Source: an uncultured Prochlorococcus sp.
GTDB lineage: Bacteria > Cyanobacteriota > Cyanobacteriia > PCC-6307 > Cyanobiaceae
Length of the DNA stretch: 32,333 bases
Assembly (NCBI GenBank): GCA_902537445.1
Contig: CACBBI010000010.1
Location: forward strand, 1 to 32,333
Direction: 5' to 3'
In this document: piece by piece, positions 10,034 through 32,333 of the stretch
Numbering within the stretch: the stretch's first letter is position 1
Layout of the letters: the number at the start of each line of letters is the position of its first letter
The notes under the pieces: generated by a model
Databases searched by the model: none
What the model was told of the DNA's origin: nothing
What the model saw: the letters and a program-made list of their open reading frames with translations, nothing else
Translations under genes and position numbers: made by a program

Positions 10034-11254
10034 ATGAGTGGTTTTAATTTTGATGTAATTACATTGTTTCCTAAAGCTTTTGAATTAATAAATAATTTAG
10101 GGGTTATAACAAAAGCTTTAGATAAGAATTTGATCGATGTAAATTTACATGATTTAAGAAAATATGGAGAAGGTTCTTACAGACAAGTAGACGACAAGCC
10201 TTATGGAGGTGGAGCAGGAATGCTATTAAAACCTGAACCTATTTATAAGGCATATGAATCAATTAGAAAATTACCTAAAAGTAAAACTTTGCTGATGACC
10301 CCACAGGGTAAAGTCCTAAAGCAAAACGATCTTGTGAGATGGTCCACTTTGGATCAAATAATAATTATTTGTGGTCAATATGAAGGTTTTGATGAAAGGA
10401 TTAGATTTTTAGCTGATGAAGAGATATCTATAGGCGATTATGTACTTTCTGGAGGTGAGATACCCGCTATATCAATAATTAACGGCTTGACTAGATTATT
10501 ACCAGGAACTCTTGGTGATCCAGACTCTTTAGTCGATGAGAGTCATAATTCTTCTTTATTAGAATATCCTCAATACACAAGGCCATTAACTTTTAAAGAT
10601 ATGAAAGTGCCAGATATTCTAGTGAGCGGTAATCATGAAGAGATTAAGTCGTGGAGAAGAAGAAAAAGTTTTGAAAGAACATTGGAGAGAAGAAGTGACT
10701 TAATTTCAAATGAAAACTACAAAAAATCCCCACAAAGTAAGAGAATAATAAAAGAAAATAATCAATTCATGAAATTTAGAATAGGTAATGGATACGATAT
10801 TCACAGACTAGTAGAGGATAGAGATTTAATTATTGGAGGTGTAAAATTGCATCATCCTGAAAAATTAGGATTGGATGGTCATAGTGATGCGGATGTTTTA
10901 AGTCACTCAATAATGGATGCATTATTGGGAGCACTTTCGCTGGGCGACATAGGAAAGTATTTTCCTCCATCTGATGAAAAATGGAAAGATGCTGATAGCT
11001 TGTTTTTGTTATCAAAAGTAATTGACTTGATAAGACAAGATGGTTGGGAAATAAATAATATTGATAGTGTTCTTGTTGCTGAAAGGCCAAAAATCATGCC
11101 ACATATAAAACTAATGAAAAAAAACATTTCTGAAATCTTAAATATTGATGAAAATTTAATCGGGATTAAAGCAACCACGAATGAAAAATTAGGTCCAGAA
11201 GGGAGAGAAGAGGGTATAAGTTGCCATTCAGTAGTTCTACTTGAGAAAAAATGA
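10034..11254 (+). CDS. trmD-ispF: TrmD-IspF fusion: tRNA m1G37 methyltransferase and MEcPP synthase in one frame
   Basis: One uninterrupted frame of 406 codons joins two enzymes. Residues 1 to about 225 are TrmD, which methylates G37 of tRNAs with S-adenosylmethionine: PYGGGAGM at 56-63, [10 protein letters not shown] at 114-123, [11 protein letters not shown] at 132-142, an acidic D168/E169 pair at the position of the catalytic Asp, and YPQYTRP at 178-184. Residues 246-406 are a full-length IspF, which makes 2-C-methyl-D-erythritol 2,4-cyclodiphosphate in the MEP isoprenoid pathway: metal ligands D255 and H257 in GYDIHRL, H291, and ATTNEKLG at 380-387. The linker (about 226-245) is Lys/Asn/Glu-rich. 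M246 (ATG at 10769) is exactly where a separate IspF would begin, so internal initiation could also produce free IspF. TrmD enzymes are dimers and IspF trimers, which makes a physical fusion surprising. Confidence 0.9.
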
Positions 11255-24662: not shown

Positions 24663-25292
24663 ATGGCTACTTCTGCGGATAATTCACTCACGGCAGCTCA
24701 AAATGAGCTTTACAAATGGATAAAAAATTATATGAGAGATTTTCAACATAGTCCATCAATAAGGCAAATGATGCAAGCTATGGGTCTAAAATCCCCCGCT
24801 CCAATACAAAGCCGTTTAAAGCATCTTCAGGAAAAAGGATATATTTCTTGGCAAGAAGGAAAAGCTAGAACCCTTCAATTAATTGAAGATATCTTGGAAA
24901 ATCAAATTCCAATAATGGGTTCAATTGCAGCTGGAGGTTTAATAGAGACTTATAGTGACGTTAATGAGACTTTAGATGTTGATTCGATTCTTAATAGAAA
25001 AAATATATTTGCACTCACAGTGAATGGAGATTCAATGATAGATGCCTGCATTGCAGATGGCGATACTGTAATAATTGAACCAATAACTGAAATTTCTCAA
25101 ATAAGAATAGGAACAATTGTAAGTGCGCTAGTTCCTGGTTCTGGTACAACTTTAAAATATTTCAATAGAAAAGGAAATCTTATAATTCTAGAAGCAGCTA
25201 ACCCATCCTATGAACCAATTAAGTTAGATATTTCTCAAGTTATTATTCAAGGAAAACTGATTGCAGTTTGGCGCAGTACAACAAAAATCTAA
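24663..25292 (+). CDS. lexA: LexA repressor
   Basis: SOS-response repressor of 209 residues. The N-terminal winged helix (about 8-70) includes SPSIRQMMQAMGLKSPAPIQ. The C-terminal peptidase domain keeps everything needed for self-cleavage: the scissile Ala-Gly at A90-G91 in GSIAAGG, the catalytic serine S124 in NGDSM, and the lysine K165 in TTLKYF. The ATG at 24663 follows directly on two LexA boxes, with no Shine-Dalgarno site. The stop overlaps the stop of the convergent gene at 25289 by 4 bases. RecA-triggered cleavage is expected from the family. Confidence 0.96.
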   Translation: MATSADNSLTAAQNELYKWIKNYMRDFQHSPSIRQMMQAMGLKSPAPIQSRLKHLQEKGYISWQEGKARTLQLIEDILENQIPIMGSIAAGGLIETYSDVNETLDVDSILNRKNIFALTVNGDSMIDACIADGDTVIIEPITEISQIRIGTIVSALVPGSGTTLKYFNRKGNLIILEAANPSYEPIKLDISQVIIQGKLIAVWRSTTKI

Positions 25293-27109
25293 AAGATATA
25301 GTTCATTTTAATTCCAAATCTTAAATCTTTCGATGTTAGCATTTGTCCTAAATCTAGGGAACCTTCTGCATTACTTATATAGAAATCTATAGATTTATTT
25401 TCATTTGGTAAATACCTTAATATGAAACCTGCATTAGGATTTATTTGTTCTGAAAAAATATAATTAAATTCTGGTATAAGGTAAATTTTTTCTATTAATT
25501 CATAATTAAGACTTACGCCCATGCCTGAAATTGTCTCTATTCCACTCCAAGTAAGTTTAGGATTCAAATTTAGATCTAACTTTGGAGTCAGTTCAATAGT
25601 ACTTATTAATTCTCCAAAGAGATACCCTTGATTTGTTGTTTGTTCTCTACCAAGACTTAATCTGCTCGATAGCCAAAAAGAATCTCCCCTCATCGGACTT
25701 AAAAAATTTAATTTTGTACCAAATCGATTATTAAGATTATTTTTTGCCATAAAAGTATTTCTTAGGGTCTGGAATTTATCATTTTTATCTAAATCAGAAT
25801 TTTTATAAGTACCAATGTTTAGAATTTCAAGTTGCATTAAATTCGAAAATGAATATGCATATGAACCAAAGTAATTTCCTTTGTCATCAAAGTCTATAGC
25901 AACTTGGTTTGTCCCTTGCTCAGGTAAAATTGCATTATTAACAGAGTGACCTTTGTGAATGCGAGATGTTACGTCTTTTGTATAAGGTCTTTGAACGGAA
26001 TCAGGAAAACCTGGATTTATTTTTAGACTTACTTTATATAAAGGAAGATTGCCTGATGGTATAGTTAAGTGCCCTGTTGAAGGGGTTTCTCCAAATGCAT
26101 TGGTTATCGAAGCTCTTAAGTCAAATCTTGGATTTGGATCCCATTTAAAACCAACATTATAAATATTCTCCCTAGAGAATTCTAGACTTTGATTAAAAGA
26201 GTTATATCCTGGTCCTAATTGAAAAGAATAAGAGCCTAATAAGTGTAAATCTTTCTTGATTTTTAAGTCAGTCCCAAAACCAAGTGAAAAATTGTTTCCA
26301 TAAAAATTTTCGATTTTTTTGTTTGAACCAATTGTTGCAGGTAAGAATGATACCCTTGGAGCTAGAGTAAAATTACTTTTATCATTTAATTGGTACGTTA
26401 ATGGAGTTGAAAAAGAACCTATAATTTCAGTTTTACTGTGACGACCTATATCAAGATTTTCCTTTTTGTATACTGTTGCTAATTCCCAAAGTTCTATTGA
26501 TTTATTAATAGATAGTTTTAATTTATTGGAATTATTTAAATTTATCTTTCTATTTATATTTAAGGCATAATTTCTCCAGTAATTTTTTGTTGGAAGTTCT
26601 CCTATGTTTTTTATAGAATAATAATAAGGATCATCCGCTTCGGAGATATAAGCTGAAATAAAAGTTTCGGAGTTTAAACCGTAATCTAATCTATAAGAAT
26701 AGTTTTGATTACCGGTACCTTTAGCTTCTCCTCCACCAAAAGATGATTTCATTGAAAAACTATGAGAAAAATAGCCATCTTTTGGATAATTATTTATCTG
26801 TAAAGTGGGAGAAATTTGTAAAGGCTTTAATTCTCTATGATTTATTGAATTATCATAGGTATTAATAAAATCATTTTTTAAAATATTAGTGTTCTTTTTT
26901 AAGTGTTCTTTTTGATATTCAATGATAAATTCTTTTTCGTCAAATGGAACCCACTTTAATGACTTTTTTTCAATAAACTTCTTATTATTAATTATTCTTT
27001 CCCAATTAATTCTTGAACGATCCTTTGTGGTCTCTTGAGCTATAGATTCAATATTTAATAGTAAAATAAAAATTGTTAAAAATTTAAATCTGAAAAATTT
27101 ATATTTCAT
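25289..27109 (-). CDS. Predicted outer-membrane beta-barrel protein
   Basis: A 606-residue protein that I do not assign to a named family. It starts with a signal peptide (KYKFFRFKFLTIFILLLNI, probable cleavage after SIAQ, about residue 25). A polar N-terminal segment follows (about 26-100), then some 500 residues of alternating short amphipathic strands with turns, for example YSYRLDYGLNSETFISAYIS, FGFGTDLKIKKDLHLLGSYSF-like repeats and LMQLEILNIGTY. The final residues FGIKMNYIF end in Phe with alternating hydrophobics, the usual signal for BAM-dependent insertion. It may be a porin or surface protein. It follows lexA tail to tail with a 4-base overlap and precedes a polysaccharide-type region. 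Confidence 0.65.
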   Translation of the reverse strand: MKYKFFRFKFLTIFILLLNIESIAQETTKDRSRINWERIINNKKFIEKKSLKWVPFDEKEFIIEYQKEHLKKNTNILKNDFINTYDNSINHRELKPLQISPTLQINNYPKDGYFSHSFSMKSSFGGGEAKGTGNQNYSYRLDYGLNSETFISAYISEADDPYYYSIKNIGELPTKNYWRNYALNINRKINLNNSNKLKLSINKSIELWELATVYKKENLDIGRHSKTEIIGSFSTPLTYQLNDKSNFTLAPRVSFLPATIGSNKKIENFYGNNFSLGFGTDLKIKKDLHLLGSYSFQLGPGYNSFNQSLEFSRENIYNVGFKWDPNPRFDLRASITNAFGETPSTGHLTIPSGNLPLYKVSLKINPGFPDSVQRPYTKDVTSRIHKGHSVNNAILPEQGTNQVAIDFDDKGNYFGSYAYSFSNLMQLEILNIGTYKNSDLDKNDKFQTLRNTFMAKNNLNNRFGTKLNFLSPMRGDSFWLSSRLSLGREQTTNQGYLFGELISTIELTPKLDLNLNPKLTWSGIETISGMGVSLNYELIEKIYLIPEFNYIFSEQINPNAGFILRYLPNENKSIDFYISNAEGSLDLGQMLTSKDLRFGIKMNYIF

Positions 27110-27220: not shown

Positions 27221-28927
27221 TCACCTATTTTTCACTCGCAAAATATAAGCATATAAACTAGATCCTCCATTAAATATTAGATTATTTTGTTCTATATCTT
27301 TAACGTTCTTTTTTTCAATTTTCTTCAAAACTGAGATTTTGGAATTTTCTAAAAAACATTCTTTATTTTTTTCAACTAAATGGTTTATTTGTTTTTCGTC
27401 TCCAATAAACGGAGTTCTGTGACTATAAACAAATATTTTAAATTCATCTAATTTGCTTATACTTTTTTTATTACAGCTCTTCTCTTTGATTAATTTATTA
27501 AGTTCGGTACTGTATAAAGATAAATCACCAGAAAAAAGAGTATATCTATTAGGTGCATAAAAATCAGACTCCTTAAGCAAATTTATTAAATTATTATTAT
27601 CAGCTTGGGTGTAACTTATTTCTTTCATTGAAAAATAAGAACCTAAAAAATAAAAATTAAATAATAATACAATAATAATTAATTTATAAAACTGATTTTT
27701 ATATCTTATGAACAATTTTTCAGTAGTAATTATTATAGGGATCCAAAAAAGAGGATAAAGAAATATTGTATGACGAGTCGGAGCTAATATAAATTTTCCT
27801 GATAAAGATAATCCAATAGTCGTGATAATACAAAAGATTGAATAAAGAGCAAAATACTTTGTTAGTAAATTTCCCCTACACATCTTAATGTATGCAAATA
27901 CAAATAATCCTAGGTAAAAAAATGAAACTTCAACTTGAGATATTCTGAAAGGGTATAGAGATTGAGTGATTATAGATTTAATACTGAAAATTAATTTATT
28001 TATAATATTAAATGGCTCATTCAAAAAATTCGAAATATCATAGACATCGTTTATTCCTTTGGCCCAAAAACCCGGCGCAGATTTAAAAATAAAAGCCATT
28101 AATGAAAATTTAAATAGATAAGTTAATATAAAAAAAGTTAATGAGAAATATACTAATCGTCTAAAGAATTTATTTCCTACTGATTTAAATAATAAATTAT
28201 ATTTTACTAATATAAACATTGGATTAAAAATCTTCTTTGGCTCTAGTTTGATTTTTGATAAATAGGCATAAATTAATATTGTAGAAACAAATGCAAAAAC
28301 AATTATGGTAGATTGAAAAGTTAAAATTAAGCTAAATATTGTGAACAATATTAAATAATTTTTTTTAAGAAATAAATATTCGCCTGATATAACCTCAAAG
28401 TCTTTGTTATTGATAATAACTAACATTAAAAGGATTATTAATTGTATTGTTATAGTTGCCAAATTATATGGCATATTTGAGTTAGAGTGTAAAAAAATTT
28501 GTGGACTTAACAAATTAAATAAAACACTCAGGATTTCTATAAAGTAATTATTTGTATTAAAATTTCTAGATTTCTGCTTCAAAAGAGAACATATTGAATA
28601 TGTTAAAAATGATGAAATAGTTAATGAGAATAATGAGAGAAATAGGCATATATTTCTTATTGCATCAATGCCTAATGTTTTAAAGATATATGAAAAAAAT
28701 GTAAAATATTGATGAATAGGAGGATAAGAACCCCATCCTAAGATTGAAAGTCTCAGATAATCTTTTGAACTAGATGCATCAAAAAGTGCCTTTAATGGTC
28801 CATAATCATCAATATGTCTCCATGTTGGATCTCCTATCACTAACCAAAATAAAATTGAGATTAATAAAGTTAGATAGAAAAAAGGTGAAGGCTTTTTTAT
28901 TTGAAGATTACTTATCGAGATTTTCAT
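27221..28927 (-). CDS. Multi-spanning membrane protein, probable GT-C-type glycosyltransferase
   Basis: A 568-residue protein with about ten or more hydrophobic segments up to residue 430 and a soluble C-terminal domain of about 135 residues. The layout resembles lipid-linked-sugar glycosyltransferases of the GT-C fold (PMT/ArnT-like): after the first membrane helix comes a loop with two acidic residues, HIDDYGPLKAL (about 37-48), then YPPIHQYFTFF, as in the DD/DE catalytic loop of those enzymes. No closer assignment is possible. The substrate is probably a polyprenyl-phosphate sugar and the site the periplasmic side of the membrane, by analogy. It is very AT-rich (many Ile, Phe, Asn, Lys), more so than the housekeeping genes. 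It is divergent from the aldolase gene. Confidence 0.55.
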   Translation of the reverse strand: MKISISNLQIKKPSPFFYLTLLISILFWLVIGDPTWRHIDDYGPLKALFDASSSKDYLRLSILGWGSYPPIHQYFTFFSYIFKTLGIDAIRNICLFLSLFSLTISSFLTYSICSLLKQKSRNFNTNNYFIEILSVLFNLLSPQIFLHSNSNMPYNLATITIQLIILLMLVIINNKDFEVISGEYLFLKKNYLILFTIFSLILTFQSTIIVFAFVSTILIYAYLSKIKLEPKKIFNPMFILVKYNLLFKSVGNKFFRRLVYFSLTFFILTYLFKFSLMAFIFKSAPGFWAKGINDVYDISNFLNEPFNIINKLIFSIKSIITQSLYPFRISQVEVSFFYLGLFVFAYIKMCRGNLLTKYFALYSIFCIITTIGLSLSGKFILAPTRHTIFLYPLFWIPIIITTEKLFIRYKNQFYKLIIIVLLFNFYFLGSYFSMKEISYTQADNNNLINLLKESDFYAPNRYTLFSGDLSLYSTELNKLIKEKSCNKKSISKLDEFKIFVYSHRTPFIGDEKQINHLVEKNKECFLENSKISVLKKIEKKNVKDIEQNNLIFNGGSSLYAYILRVKNR

Positions 28928-29198: not shown

Positions 29199-30209
29199 AT
29201 GGATGAGTCTTTTCTAAAAGCATCAGAAGAAATTGGAAGAAATTTTAATTTAATTCAGGGCGCTGGAGGTAATACCTCATTTAAAAATGATGACTCTATG
29301 TTTATTAAAGCATCTGGTTATAAGCTGAAAGATTCTTTGCAAAAGGATATTTTTGTGAAGGTAAATCTAAAAAAACTTAGAGAATCTATAAAACAAAATT
29401 TGAAGAATCCCTTAGAAGATACTTGGGATAAATCTTTAGGTAAAAGGCCTTCAATGGAAACAAACATGCATGCGATTTTGCCTAATAAATATATATTTCA
29501 TACACATTGTTTAAATACTATTAGCTTATTAGTTCAGAATCAATGCCAATTTAAAATTTCTAAAATCTTCAATGATTTAAAATATAAAATTATTCAATAT
29601 AAGACTCCTGGAATTCCATTGGCAAATGAAATAAAAAAAGTTTTAAAAGAAGATAAACCAGAAATTATTTTTTTATCAAATCATGGATTAGTTGTTTGTG
29701 CAGATGATATTGATACGGCATTAAATTTAACTTATTTAGTATCAAAAAAACTTGATTTTCCTATCCGCGAAAGCAAGAAAGAAAATTTAAAAAAGTTAAA
29801 TAAGATAGCAAGTGGTACTTGTTTTAGACCTACAAGATATAATAATGCTCATGAATTAGCTTTTTCTGAGCATACGATTAAAATTGCATCTTCTGGCTCT
29901 CTATATCCAGATCATGTTGTTTTTCTTGGGAGAAGAACTTTTGTTATTAATACAAAAAATGAACTTGAAGAAATTATTAAAAACAGTACAATTGAACAAA
30001 AATTACCTCTTGTTATCGTCCCCCATGCAGGTATATTAGTACCTGAAAATATAAGTTATGAGGCTGAAGAATTAGTTTTAGCCTTATCAAAAATTGTTGC
30101 AAAAATACCAAATAATTCAAAGATTAATTATCTTAGTCTTAATGATGAACTTCAATTGGAAAAATCTAATTCTGAAAATTACAGATTAAGTTTAAACTCT
30201 AGAATATAA
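29199..30209 (+). CDS. Class II aldolase/adducin-family protein
   Basis: A 336-residue protein. Residues 1 to about 185 are a class II aldolase domain: the phosphate-binding GGNTS at 23-27, the catalytic-type glutamate E87 in ETNMHAILP, zinc-type histidines H101 and H103 in FHTHCL, and SNHGLVV at 160-166 supplying H162. Family members cleave or epimerise sugar phosphates such as fuculose, rhamnulose or ribulose 5-phosphate. The last 150 residues (SLYPDHVVFLGRRTF, then VPHAGILVPENISYEAEELVLAL) are a further conserved part seen in longer members. The next gene starts directly after the TAA, so the products are made together, which suggests a role in making an unusual sugar for a surface polysaccharide. 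The substrate is unknown. Confidence 0.8.
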   Translation: MDESFLKASEEIGRNFNLIQGAGGNTSFKNDDSMFIKASGYKLKDSLQKDIFVKVNLKKLRESIKQNLKNPLEDTWDKSLGKRPSMETNMHAILPNKYIFHTHCLNTISLLVQNQCQFKISKIFNDLKYKIIQYKTPGIPLANEIKKVLKEDKPEIIFLSNHGLVVCADDIDTALNLTYLVSKKLDFPIRESKKENLKKLNKIASGTCFRPTRYNNAHELAFSEHTIKIASSGSLYPDHVVFLGRRTFVINTKNELEEIIKNSTIEQKLPLVIVPHAGILVPENISYEAEELVLALSKIVAKIPNNSKINYLSLNDELQLEKSNSENYRLSLNSRI

Positions 30210-31784
30210 ATGCAACTTATTATCCCGATGTCCGGTCTAGGTGAAAGATTCCTTAAGGCTGGCTACACAGTCCCAAAACCATTAATAGAGGTTGAAAAAC
30301 AGGAAATCATTTCTCATGTTGTAAATATGTTTCCTGGTATAAAATCAATATTTTTTATATGTAATAAAAACCATTTAGAAAACCCTACTTTAGACTTAAA
30401 AAATAAATTGAAGAATATAAGCTCTAATTGCAAAATTATTCCAATTGATCAACATAAAAAAGGTCCTATACATGCAGTCTTAAAATCAATCCAATTCTTT
30501 GATCCTGATGCTCCAACTATAGTTAATTATTGTGATTTCAATTGTATTTGGGATTTTAAAAAGTTTAAGGAACATACCCAATCTTCAGAATGCGATGGAT
30601 GCATTGTAACTTATACGGGTTTTCATCCTCATATGCTTGGCAGTACAAATTATGCATATTTAAAACTTAAAGACTCTAATATTGTAGATATTCAAGAAAA
30701 AAAGCCATTTACTCCTAATCCTATGGGAGAGCATGCATCAAGTGGAACTTATTTTTTTAAATCTGCAAAATTAATGGAAAAATATTTTAAAAAAACTATA
30801 GAAAAAGATTTAAATGTAAATGGTGAATACTATGTTTCAATGAGTTTCAAACCTATGATAGAAGATAAATTAAAATTGACTACTTTTAACTTAGATTATT
30901 TTATGCAATGGGGTACCCCTGAAGATTTAAAGGAATATAATTGGTATTCAAATTTATTTAAAGCTGCAGCTAAAAGAAACAATAATGAAAATAGGTTTTT
31001 GGATAATACAACATTATTAATGCCTTGCGCTGGAGAAGGGAAAAGATTCGCTGATCAAGGTTTTTCAGATCCTAAACCTCTTATTAAATTATCTAATAGG
31101 CCAATGCTTTTTAATGCCGTAGATGATTTACCTAATACAAAAATAAAGAAATTTATTTTCAGAAAAGATATGCAAAAATTGGATCTTATAACTAAGAAAT
31201 TAAAGGATGCATATCCTGAGGCAAGTACTCAGCTCTTAAACAACAAAACTAATGGTCAGGCACATACGTGTTTATTAGGTTTAGAAAATATTGATTTAAA
31301 TAAACCCCTATTAATAAGCGCATGTGATAATGGCTTGATATATGACTTTAACCTCTTTAAAGATTTTATTAATGATGATTCAATTGATATTTTGGTTTGG
31401 GGATGTAGAGAATATCCTGGTGCTATAAGAAATCCTAAAATGTTTGGGTGGATAGAGGAAGAAAATAAAATTATAAAAAAAATTCATGTAAAAGAAATTT
31501 TTAAAGATAAATTTAAAGATCCTATTGTAACTGGGACTTTTTATTTTAAAAAATCTTCAATTTTTAAAGAAATAGCTAATCAATTAATAGCTTGTAATGA
31601 TAAAGTTAATAATGAATTTTATGTTGATAGTTGCATCAATCATGCAATTGATATTGGATATAAAGTAGCTTTCTTCGAAGTTGATTTTTACTTATGTTGG
31701 GGAACTCCTAATGAATTGAAAACGTTTAATTATTGGCAGGAATGTTTTAGTAAAGCAAACTACCATATTTATAAACAAAATTAA
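30210..31784 (+). CDS. Tandem two-domain sugar nucleotidyltransferase-like protein
   Basis: A 524-residue protein made of two related nucleotidyltransferase-fold domains, residues 1-255 and about 266-524. The first has MSGLGERF (7-14), PKPLI (22-26), CDF (108-110), GEHASSGTYFF (173-183), VNGEYYVS (203-210) and WGTPEDL (234-240). The second has PCAGEGKRF (272-280), PKPLI (288-292), CDN (372-374), DPIVTGTFYF (437-446), VNNEFYVDS (466-474) and WGTPNEL (498-504). The spacing between equivalent motifs is constant at 264-266 residues, so this is an internal duplication. Both halves keep the glycine-rich NTP loop, the lysine of PKPLI and the metal-type aspartate, so both may be active. It probably makes nucleotide-activated sugars or sugar-like alcohols. 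It is fused head to tail with the aldolase gene at zero spacing. Confidence 0.8.
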   Translation: MQLIIPMSGLGERFLKAGYTVPKPLIEVEKQEIISHVVNMFPGIKSIFFICNKNHLENPTLDLKNKLKNISSNCKIIPIDQHKKGPIHAVLKSIQFFDPDAPTIVNYCDFNCIWDFKKFKEHTQSSECDGCIVTYTGFHPHMLGSTNYAYLKLKDSNIVDIQEKKPFTPNPMGEHASSGTYFFKSAKLMEKYFKKTIEKDLNVNGEYYVSMSFKPMIEDKLKLTTFNLDYFMQWGTPEDLKEYNWYSNLFKAAAKRNNNENRFLDNTTLLMPCAGEGKRFADQGFSDPKPLIKLSNRPMLFNAVDDLPNTKIKKFIFRKDMQKLDLITKKLKDAYPEASTQLLNNKTNGQAHTCLLGLENIDLNKPLLISACDNGLIYDFNLFKDFINDDSIDILVWGCREYPGAIRNPKMFGWIEEENKIIKKIHVKEIFKDKFKDPIVTGTFYFKKSSIFKEIANQLIACNDKVNNEFYVDSCINHAIDIGYKVAFFEVDFYLCWGTPNELKTFNYWQECFSKANYHIYKQN

Positions 31785-31821
31785 TTGAGTAAAAACTAAG
31801 TAGAAAAAACTATTCAGAAAA

Positions 31822-32333
31822 ATGAAATTCTCACTAATAATTCCTTGCTATAATGAAAACAAAAATTTAAATCATCTTTTTGCAAAGTTAAAGAAAGTTT
31901 TAAATGATAATTTATTTGAAGTAGTGATTGTTGAAAATGGATCAACAGACAAAAGTTTAGAAACTATTAAAAAATATAATTTAAAGTATAAAAATCTAAA
32001 ATACATTAAATTAGATAAAAATGAAGGTTATGGTAACGGTATTCTAAGAGGTTTAGAAATAGCAACAGGAGATTTTCTTTCTTGGACTCATGCAGATTTG
32101 CAAACTGATCCACAAGATATATTAAAAGGTAAGAATTTGTTTTTAGGAAGTAATAAAAAAGTCTTTGTAAAAGGGCTTAGATTTGGCAGGACTCTTAATG
32201 ATAGATTTTTTACAATTGGTATGAGCATTTTTTGTTCATTAATTTTGAGAACTTTTTTGTGGGATATTAATGCTCAACCATCAATTTTTCCAGCATCTTT
32301 TTATAAAACTTGGGAAAATCCCCCTAAAGATTT
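31822..32333 (+). CDS. Family 2 glycosyltransferase, N-terminal part (cut by window end)
   Basis: ATG at 31822, open to the window end; 170 residues are visible. It starts MKFSLIIPCYNENKNL, a GT-A fold opening, followed by VENGSTD at 37-43 (nucleotide site) and SWTHADLQTDP at 87-97, where HADLQ holds the metal-binding aspartate in the place of DxD. The later KGLRFGRTLNDRFF resembles the region after the active site in polyprenyl-phosphate sugar transferases (DPM1/DPMS-like). It may load a lipid-phosphate carrier or build the polysaccharide itself. It lies 37 bases after the tandem nucleotidyltransferase and continues the same operon. Confidence 0.85.
   Translation, partial: MKFSLIIPCYNENKNLNHLFAKLKKVLNDNLFEVVIVENGSTDKSLETIKKYNLKYKNLKYIKLDKNEGYGNGILRGLEIATGDFLSWTHADLQTDPQDILKGKNLFLGSNKKVFVKGLRFGRTLNDRFFTIGMSIFCSLILRTFLWDINAQPSIFPASFYKTWENPPKD

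Follow-up and report, generated by a model that had tools for sequence, protein, structure and literature searches.

A conserved gene cassette at the end of the contig

The window analysed here is an entire contig (CACBBI010000010.1, 32,333 bases) from the 1.12 Mb genome of an uncultured Prochlorococcus, which is 69.8% complete. At its 3' end, we found three genes in a row, coding for a class II aldolase-family protein (ALD), a double nucleotidyltransferase (NTase) and a family-2 glycosyltransferase (GT2) (Table 1). A first-pass annotation had placed the three genes here with ALD abutting NTase, and the open reading frames (ORFs) and the Pfam and NCBIfam matches agreed with it. The ALD stop codon ended at 30,209 and the NTase start codon lay at 30,210, leaving zero gap, and 37 bases separated NTase from GT2. 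GT2 was truncated by the assembly, because the contig ends at 32,333. Comparison with other genomes indicated that the 2.5 genes in the window are the beginning of a conserved cassette. The first-pass annotation had described a cassette of three genes; the set is indeed conserved, but it comprises six to seven genes, coding for the double NTase, usually a GtrA-family protein, GT2, a protein with the glycerophosphodiester phosphodiesterase (GDPD) fold, a fusion of a membrane protein with phosphoribulokinase (PRK), a HAD phosphatase, and ALD.

Conservation and distribution of the cassette

The genus set consisted of 151 genomes, with the window's own counted, and was searched for NTase and ALD at E<=1e-10. 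NTase matched in 19 of them, and in 12 the match was full-length with at least 43% identity. ALD was found in exactly these 12 genomes and in no others of the 151, and the two genes were neighbours in all 12. In the other 7 genomes the NTase match was weaker (26-36% identity), and ALD was not matched. In the 11 relatives besides the window, loci were read to 20 kb or to the contig end. ALD, NTase, GT2 and the GDPD-like gene were present in a single order in all 11, the HAD gene was present in 10, and the gene of the membrane GT-C-like/kinase fusion in 9. A GtrA gene lay between NTase and GT2 in five of the 11; the other six had none there, and the window had no GtrA match. With the GT2 of the cassettes in the 11 relatives, the window GT2 shared 43-51% identity.

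Beyond the genus, genome contigs were scanned with the NTase alignment, which gave 204 relatives. The best 80 were examined, and partner genes were found by six-frame profile search. Among these 80, 52 loci were well-flanked, meaning that NTase had 9 kb or more on either side. ALD, the GDPD-fold protein, the GT-C/PRK fusion and HAD were each present in 52/52 well-flanked loci, GT2 in 48 and GtrA in 39. All five core partners were present in 48 of the 52, and in 60 of the 80 when truncated loci were included; the four well-flanked loci without a GT2 match were from the Roseomonas group. Neighbouring matches on the same strand were mostly separated by less than 200 bases (424 of 464 gaps at 91 loci). 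Two main gene orders were observed, and in 84 loci ALD was located either before NTase within 1.2 kb (43 loci) or after HAD within 2.5 kb (41 loci). We judged the linkage of ALD, NTase and GT2 to be far beyond chance. The expectation that the three genes would recur together elsewhere was borne out, and the set does include a lipid-carrier-type GT2; this assignment is at family level, and the lipid acceptor is predicted.

The hosts included Proteobacteria, cyanobacteria, Acidobacteria, Nitrospira and two E. coli plasmids. Complete annotated cassettes were found on an IncR plasmid of E. coli and on a plasmid of Azospirillum, while a plasmid of Hirschia carried the same families with the order broken and a part on the other strand. 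In these annotated records the cassette genes were named piecemeal. Only 2 of 5426 E. coli genomes had the cassette, both on plasmids, and none of the chromosomes searched carried it. The IncR plasmid (L127) came from E. coli of human stool, and the copy on a plasmid of a bullfrog isolate was 100.0% identical to it across the 8963 bases compared.

The absence of visible dTDP-rhamnose or GDP-fucose genes, pointed out in the first-pass annotation, fits the ORFs of the window, which ends within the third gene. In the relatives, the conserved downstream genes did not form a standard dTDP- or GDP-sugar pathway. We found no description of the gene set in the open PubMed Central literature. The set is widespread among bacteria but apparently has neither a name nor an assigned product.

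Enzyme families of the cassette

The window ALD matched Pfam Aldolase_II with an E-value of 2.8e-19. It is made of an aldolase domain (residues ~8-182) and a conserved C-terminal part (residues ~190-336), and the curated models nearest to it cover the aldolase part of bifunctional aldolase/short-chain dehydrogenases, among them the RhaD type. H101, H103, H162, E87 and S85 were invariant in 82/82 aligned relatives; N25, S27 and G40 were present in all 81 with a letter there, and S39 in 80 of 81. Based on the FucA and RhaD literature, we take these residues to be the zinc ligands, the catalytic acid and the phosphate loop. With its conserved histidine, acidic and presumed phosphate-binding positions, ALD falls in the class II (zinc) aldolase/epimerase family.

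NTase consists of domain 1 (residues ~1-250; 30,210-30,959) and domain 2 (residues ~265-524; 31,002-31,781). Pfam NTP_transf_3 matched the first half with an E-value of 2.9e-9, IspD matched the second half below threshold, NCBIfam nucleotidyltransferase models matched both halves, and PDB 4evw was a weak relative. The GxGxR motif and the lysine of domain 1 were present in 88/88 sequences (of 89 aligned, one had a gap there), and GxGxR, lysine and aspartate of domain 2 in 89/89. Both domains therefore carry the GxGxR ... K signature of sugar nucleotidyltransferases. The third enzyme, GT2, matched Glycos_transf_2 of Pfam with an E-value of 8e-25.

The HAD phosphatase resembled an enzyme acting on ribulose-1,5-bisphosphate (RuBP): all 20 members scanned matched the haloarchaeal RuBP 5-phosphatase model NF053830, which was the top model for both members whose full tables were available. 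The fusion protein (~690 aa) has a membrane half and a C-terminal PRK half. The profile of the PRK half matched a solved PRK (6hzk) with an E-value of 7e-59, and this half was aligned with 9qko/9qkn over profile positions 394-656. The NCBIfam phosphoribulokinase model matched 24 of 25 fusion proteins, the best with an E-value of 6e-62. In the predicted model of the fusion (mean predicted local distance difference test score, pLDDT, of 84), the top Foldseek matches were PRKs. By its profile and catalytic residues, the kinase half of the fusion belongs to class II PRK; the window stops short of this gene. Assignment as a uridine kinase was rejected on the profile E-values (3e-26 vs 7e-59 for PRK). 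The profile of the fusion matched GPI mannosyltransferase 1 with an E-value of 2e-6.

The GDPD-fold protein (~195 aa) had no Pfam or NCBIfam match in the one member scanned. Its predicted model had a pLDDT of 96, and the best Foldseek matches were glycerophosphodiester phosphodiesterases. H6, E24, D26, H38 and K64 were conserved in 81/81 sequences, and D39 was replaced by Glu in 5 of 81. The TIM barrel of the model, together with the His, Glu-x-Asp and His-Asp positions, places it in the GDPD/PI-PLC superfamily, and RefSeq names it PI-PLC/GDPD family in the plasmid records. A PDB profile match to WbbM (E 0.1) was judged to be chance.

Decay of the kinase domain and presence of RuBisCO

We scored 16 positions of the kinase, whose roles we take from the PRK literature, in 75 fusion proteins, and regarded a kinase as intact with at least 14 of them and as decayed with 13 or fewer. 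The kinase was intact in 62 proteins and decayed in 13. The decayed ones came from nine Prochlorococcus, one Synechococcaceae, two Nitrosomonas and one Nitrosospira, the last three being Nitrosomonadaceae. These groups are known to live by the Calvin cycle. With a threshold of over 400 bits, 11 of the 13 hosts with a decayed kinase had RuBisCO vs 3 of the 62 with an intact one (Fisher p 5e-9, kinship ignored). In six further intact hosts, matches of 43-224 bits exceeded the Pfam cut-off; we took these for RuBisCO-like proteins. One more intact host had a match under the cut-off. Four genomes of the same phylum but of other classes kept the kinase and had no full-strength RuBisCO (one 70-bit match). 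An additional Nitrosomonadaceae genome (G662) had RuBisCO and a decayed kinase, and the three plasmid copies from E. coli, Azospirillum and Hirschia had an intact kinase.

The residues of ALD, HAD and NTase were conserved across the whole set, including the hosts with a decayed kinase. Since these residues are kept despite the decay, the most economical interpretation is that another source supplies the kinase product, and the coincidence of decay with RuBisCO suggests that RuBP feeds the pathway.

Proposed pathway and alternatives

Based on the gene linkage, the families, the conserved catalytic residues and the decay pattern, all of them read from sequence, we tentatively propose that the cassette encodes a Gtr-like glycosylation system with a donor pathway of its own, leading from RuBP through ribulose-1-phosphate (Ru1P) to an activated pentulose. 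Every reaction, the order of the steps and the product are what we infer. RuBP is placed as the intermediate because HAD resembles RuBP phosphatase and the PRK in the same cassette would supply RuBP. The PRK domain would convert ribulose-5-phosphate to RuBP; Calvin-cycle hosts have RuBP already, and in several of them the domain has decayed. HAD would strip the 5-phosphate from RuBP to give Ru1P, as a haloarchaeal relative does for the aldolase of the same operon (PMC9700705). By retro-aldol chemistry on the ketose-1-phosphate, ALD would most likely give an epimeric pentulose-1-phosphate, for example xylulose-1-phosphate, or else cleave it. The double NTase would then form a nucleotide-activated pentulose (NDP-pentulose). 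GT2 would load the residue onto polyprenyl phosphate. In loci that have it, GtrA would flip the lipid-linked residue, and, following the scheme of Gtr three-component systems, the membrane half of the fusion would pass the residue on to a glycan outside the cell. The GDPD-fold protein may act on a phosphodiester intermediate. The first-pass annotation had suggested that a sugar phosphate is rearranged, activated and transferred; the additional genes point to RuBP and Ru1P as intermediates, and the reactions and the product are still predictions.

Precedents are consistent with some of these steps. Xylulose is described as a rare but real residue of bacterial surface glycans, with E. coli O95 named as a source, in PMC8707391. 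A link of the cassette to known xylulose O-antigens through chromosomal clusters of E. coli, such as that of O95, gained no support, as the cassette was on plasmids only in the 2 of 5426 genomes, among which the presence of the xylulose serotype was unchecked. Activation of a ketose phosphate by an NTase at a position other than the anomeric carbon is known for CDP-6-fructose (PMC10918830).

It is conceivable, though we would not put it above an even chance, that RuBP is the committed precursor of an unusual surface pentulose in many bacteria. Heterotrophs would make RuBP with a private PRK joined to the glycosyltransferase, and obligate autotrophs such as Prochlorococcus and Nitrosomonas would let the kinase die, RuBP being available to them. 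If so, central carbon fixation would be linked to surface-sugar synthesis, and the cassette would offer a testable route to nucleotide-activated pentuloses.

Several observations weigh against the RuBP-derived pentulose and its transfer. The two HAD members scored 178 and 185 bits vs the NF053830 cut-off of 330, and the general HAD models TIGR02253 and TIGR02254 also matched 20/20 members, with weaker best E-values. ALD reached 31.3 bits vs the cut-off of 300 for the Ru1P-aldolase model NF053831 and fits the RhaD type better; if it only cleaves its substrate, no activated pentulose arises. Three Prochlorococcus fusion proteins reached 36-47 bits with NF005655 (cut-off 236 bits), and a uridine kinase model matched 24 of 25 fusion proteins, more weakly than PRK. 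The aspartate before WGTP, a candidate metal ligand, is mostly Gln in NTase domain 1 and is Asp in 71 of 89 sequences in domain 2, so that activity of both domains is not assured. The assignment of the membrane half to GT-C is weak: it showed weak GT87/ALG3/PIG-M similarity, with GT87 matching 5 and ALG3 2 of 25 members, and the 50 Foldseek matches listed for the fusion model were PRK or uridine(-cytidine) kinases, with no match to the membrane half among them. To the GDPD-fold step, no role in the pathway is assigned.

The association with RuBisCO has limits as well. A quick NTase tree gave three supported independent pairs, or five on the best tree; none ran in the opposite direction and some showed no difference, so that with three to five pairs the association cannot reach 0.05. 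RuBisCO together with an intact kinase was found in Sideroxydans, Hylemonella, a betaproteobacterial metagenome-assembled genome and a Nitrosomonadaceae genome (G598); RuBisCO does not force kinase decay. It was not found in two hosts with a decayed kinase, Prochlorococcus assemblies 80% and 90% complete, nor in the window's own genome at 69.8%. The GDPD-like and GT-C/PRK genes were likewise not found in that incomplete genome, and the remaining cassette is therefore not demonstrated for this strain.

A serious rival, although in our view an unlikely one, is a phosphodiester-linked polyol or ketose phosphate in place of a glycosidic sugar, in the manner of CDP-glycerol, CDP-ribitol or CDP-glucitol, with the GDPD-fold protein trimming or remodelling the phosphodiester. 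It would give a place to a protein present in 52/52 well-flanked loci with GDPD matches in Foldseek and conserved residues, and the NTase for CDP-6-fructose shows that ketose phosphates can be activated at a primary hydroxyl (PMC10918830). However, neither a dedicated reductase nor a polyol-phosphate transferase family could be recognised in the conserved gene set, and GT2 and GtrA better suit a polyprenyl-phosphate sugar. It is similarly doubtful that kinase, HAD and ALD act on another ketose, a hexulose or heptulose, with a superfamily-level likeness to RuBP enzymes and a decay that is coincidental or avoids interference with the Calvin cycle. The scores below curated cut-offs, the few independent kinase losses and the four RuBisCO-bearing hosts that keep the kinase would suit such a substrate, as would the cyanophages that pair an NTase relative with short class II aldolase-family and annotated phosphoheptose isomerase genes. 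The match of 20/20 HAD members to the RuBP phosphatase model, a kinase profile far nearer to PRK than to uridine kinase, and decay that, among the scored proteins, occurred solely in cyanobacterial and Nitrosomonadaceae hosts argue for RuBP instead. A salvage or overflow module that drains RuBP to dihydroxyacetone phosphate (DHAP) and glycolaldehyde, with the glycosyltransferases linked for another reason, is very improbable: HAD and aldolase are the haloarchaeal degradation pair (PMC9700705), but in the cassette they are tightly linked to NTase, GT2, GtrA and the membrane protein that carries the kinase itself, an arrangement that indicates a biosynthetic role in making a surface product.

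Phage relatives and neighbouring genes

NTase matched 19 phage records, 18 of which were Synechococcus phages. Cyanophages S-SM2 and Bellamy had a full-length double-NTase relative, 39.6% and 38.7% identical to that of the window, respectively. A short class II aldolase-family gene lay one gene beyond it, and the sugar genes around them carry annotations as phosphoheptose isomerase and kinase.

Upstream of ALD, a divergent gene codes for a membrane-type protein that has no Pfam or NCBIfam family. Its homologues were found within ~3.5 kb of the cassette at L036, L045 (partial) and L046, all Prochlorococcus, and at no other searched locus. Since these are just three Prochlorococcus loci besides the window, it was excluded as a cassette member. 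Further upstream, next to a LexA-like ORF, lies the gene of a protein whose N terminus looks signal-like by eye and which had no match in Pfam or NCBIfam. Another ORF resembles a TrmD-IspF fusion (by eye).

Table 1. Positions of the cassette genes, their neighbours and related loci
Feature	Sequence	Position	Strand	Description
ALD, class II aldolase-family protein	Window	29199..30209	+	336 aa; Pfam Aldolase_II
NTase, double nucleotidyltransferase	Window	30210..31784	+	524 aa; Pfam NTP_transf_3 + NCBIfam
GT2, family-2 glycosyltransferase	Window	31822..32333	+	170 of ~235 aa, open at 3'; Pfam PF00535
Membrane-type protein, possible companion	Window	27221..28927	-	divergent from cassette
Protein with signal-like N terminus	Window	25289-27109		606 aa
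ORF resembling TrmD-IspF fusion	Window	10034-11254		406 aa
Complete cassette	L127	6022-13224		IncR plasmid, E. coli
Phage NTase relative and aldolase-family gene	L130	8001-9569 and 10635-11309		
Phage NTase relative and aldolase-family gene	L131	8001-9575 and 10710-11303		

Comparison with known systems

The cassette is a multi-gene glycan cassette common to marine cyanobacteria, many Proteobacteria and two E. coli plasmids. It could explain a part of the surface variation of Prochlorococcus, and may bear on recognition by phages and grazers.

Compared by description, the Campylobacter system for CDP-6-fructose and CDP-6-glucitol is similar in that the NTase has a ketose phosphate as its substrate, a predicted one in the cassette, and serves a surface glycan; it differs in that an NTase and an oxidoreductase are described there (PMC10918830). 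The non-carboxylating pentose bisphosphate pathway of haloarchaea shares the pairing of a HAD RuBP-5-phosphatase relative with a class II aldolase-family protein, which the cassette clusters as well. In that report (PMC9700705), however, the pathway is degradative, from guanosine to DHAP and ethylene glycol, and employs R1P kinase and R15P isomerase, whereas the cassette has PRK and places the pair amid genes for activation and glycosyl transfer. The cassette ALD is also nearer to the RhaD type than to the haloarchaeal aldolase model. The kinase half aligns with the PRK of the Calvin cycle (6hzk and the cyanobacteria-specific 9qko/9qkn), and 62 of the 75 proteins keep 14 or more of the 16 scored residues. 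Unlike that enzyme, it is fused to a membrane glycosyltransferase-like protein, and no carbon-fixation gene was among the conserved cassette genes.

Gtr systems modify the O-antigen with three components, the flippase GtrA, the bactoprenol glycosyltransferase GtrB and a membrane glycosyltransferase. The cassette resembles them in often having a GtrA-family protein (39/52), GT2 (48/52) and a large membrane protein that is weakly similar to GT-C, and in occurring also on plasmids. It differs in lacking a GT2 match at the four Roseomonas-group loci, in showing no GtrA between NTase and GT2 in the window and 6 of the 11 genus relatives, and in adding the double NTase, the PRK fused to the membrane protein, HAD, the class II aldolase and the GDPD fold. 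Gtr-like glycosylation was already known, and what would be new here is the donor, which is probably derived from RuBP.

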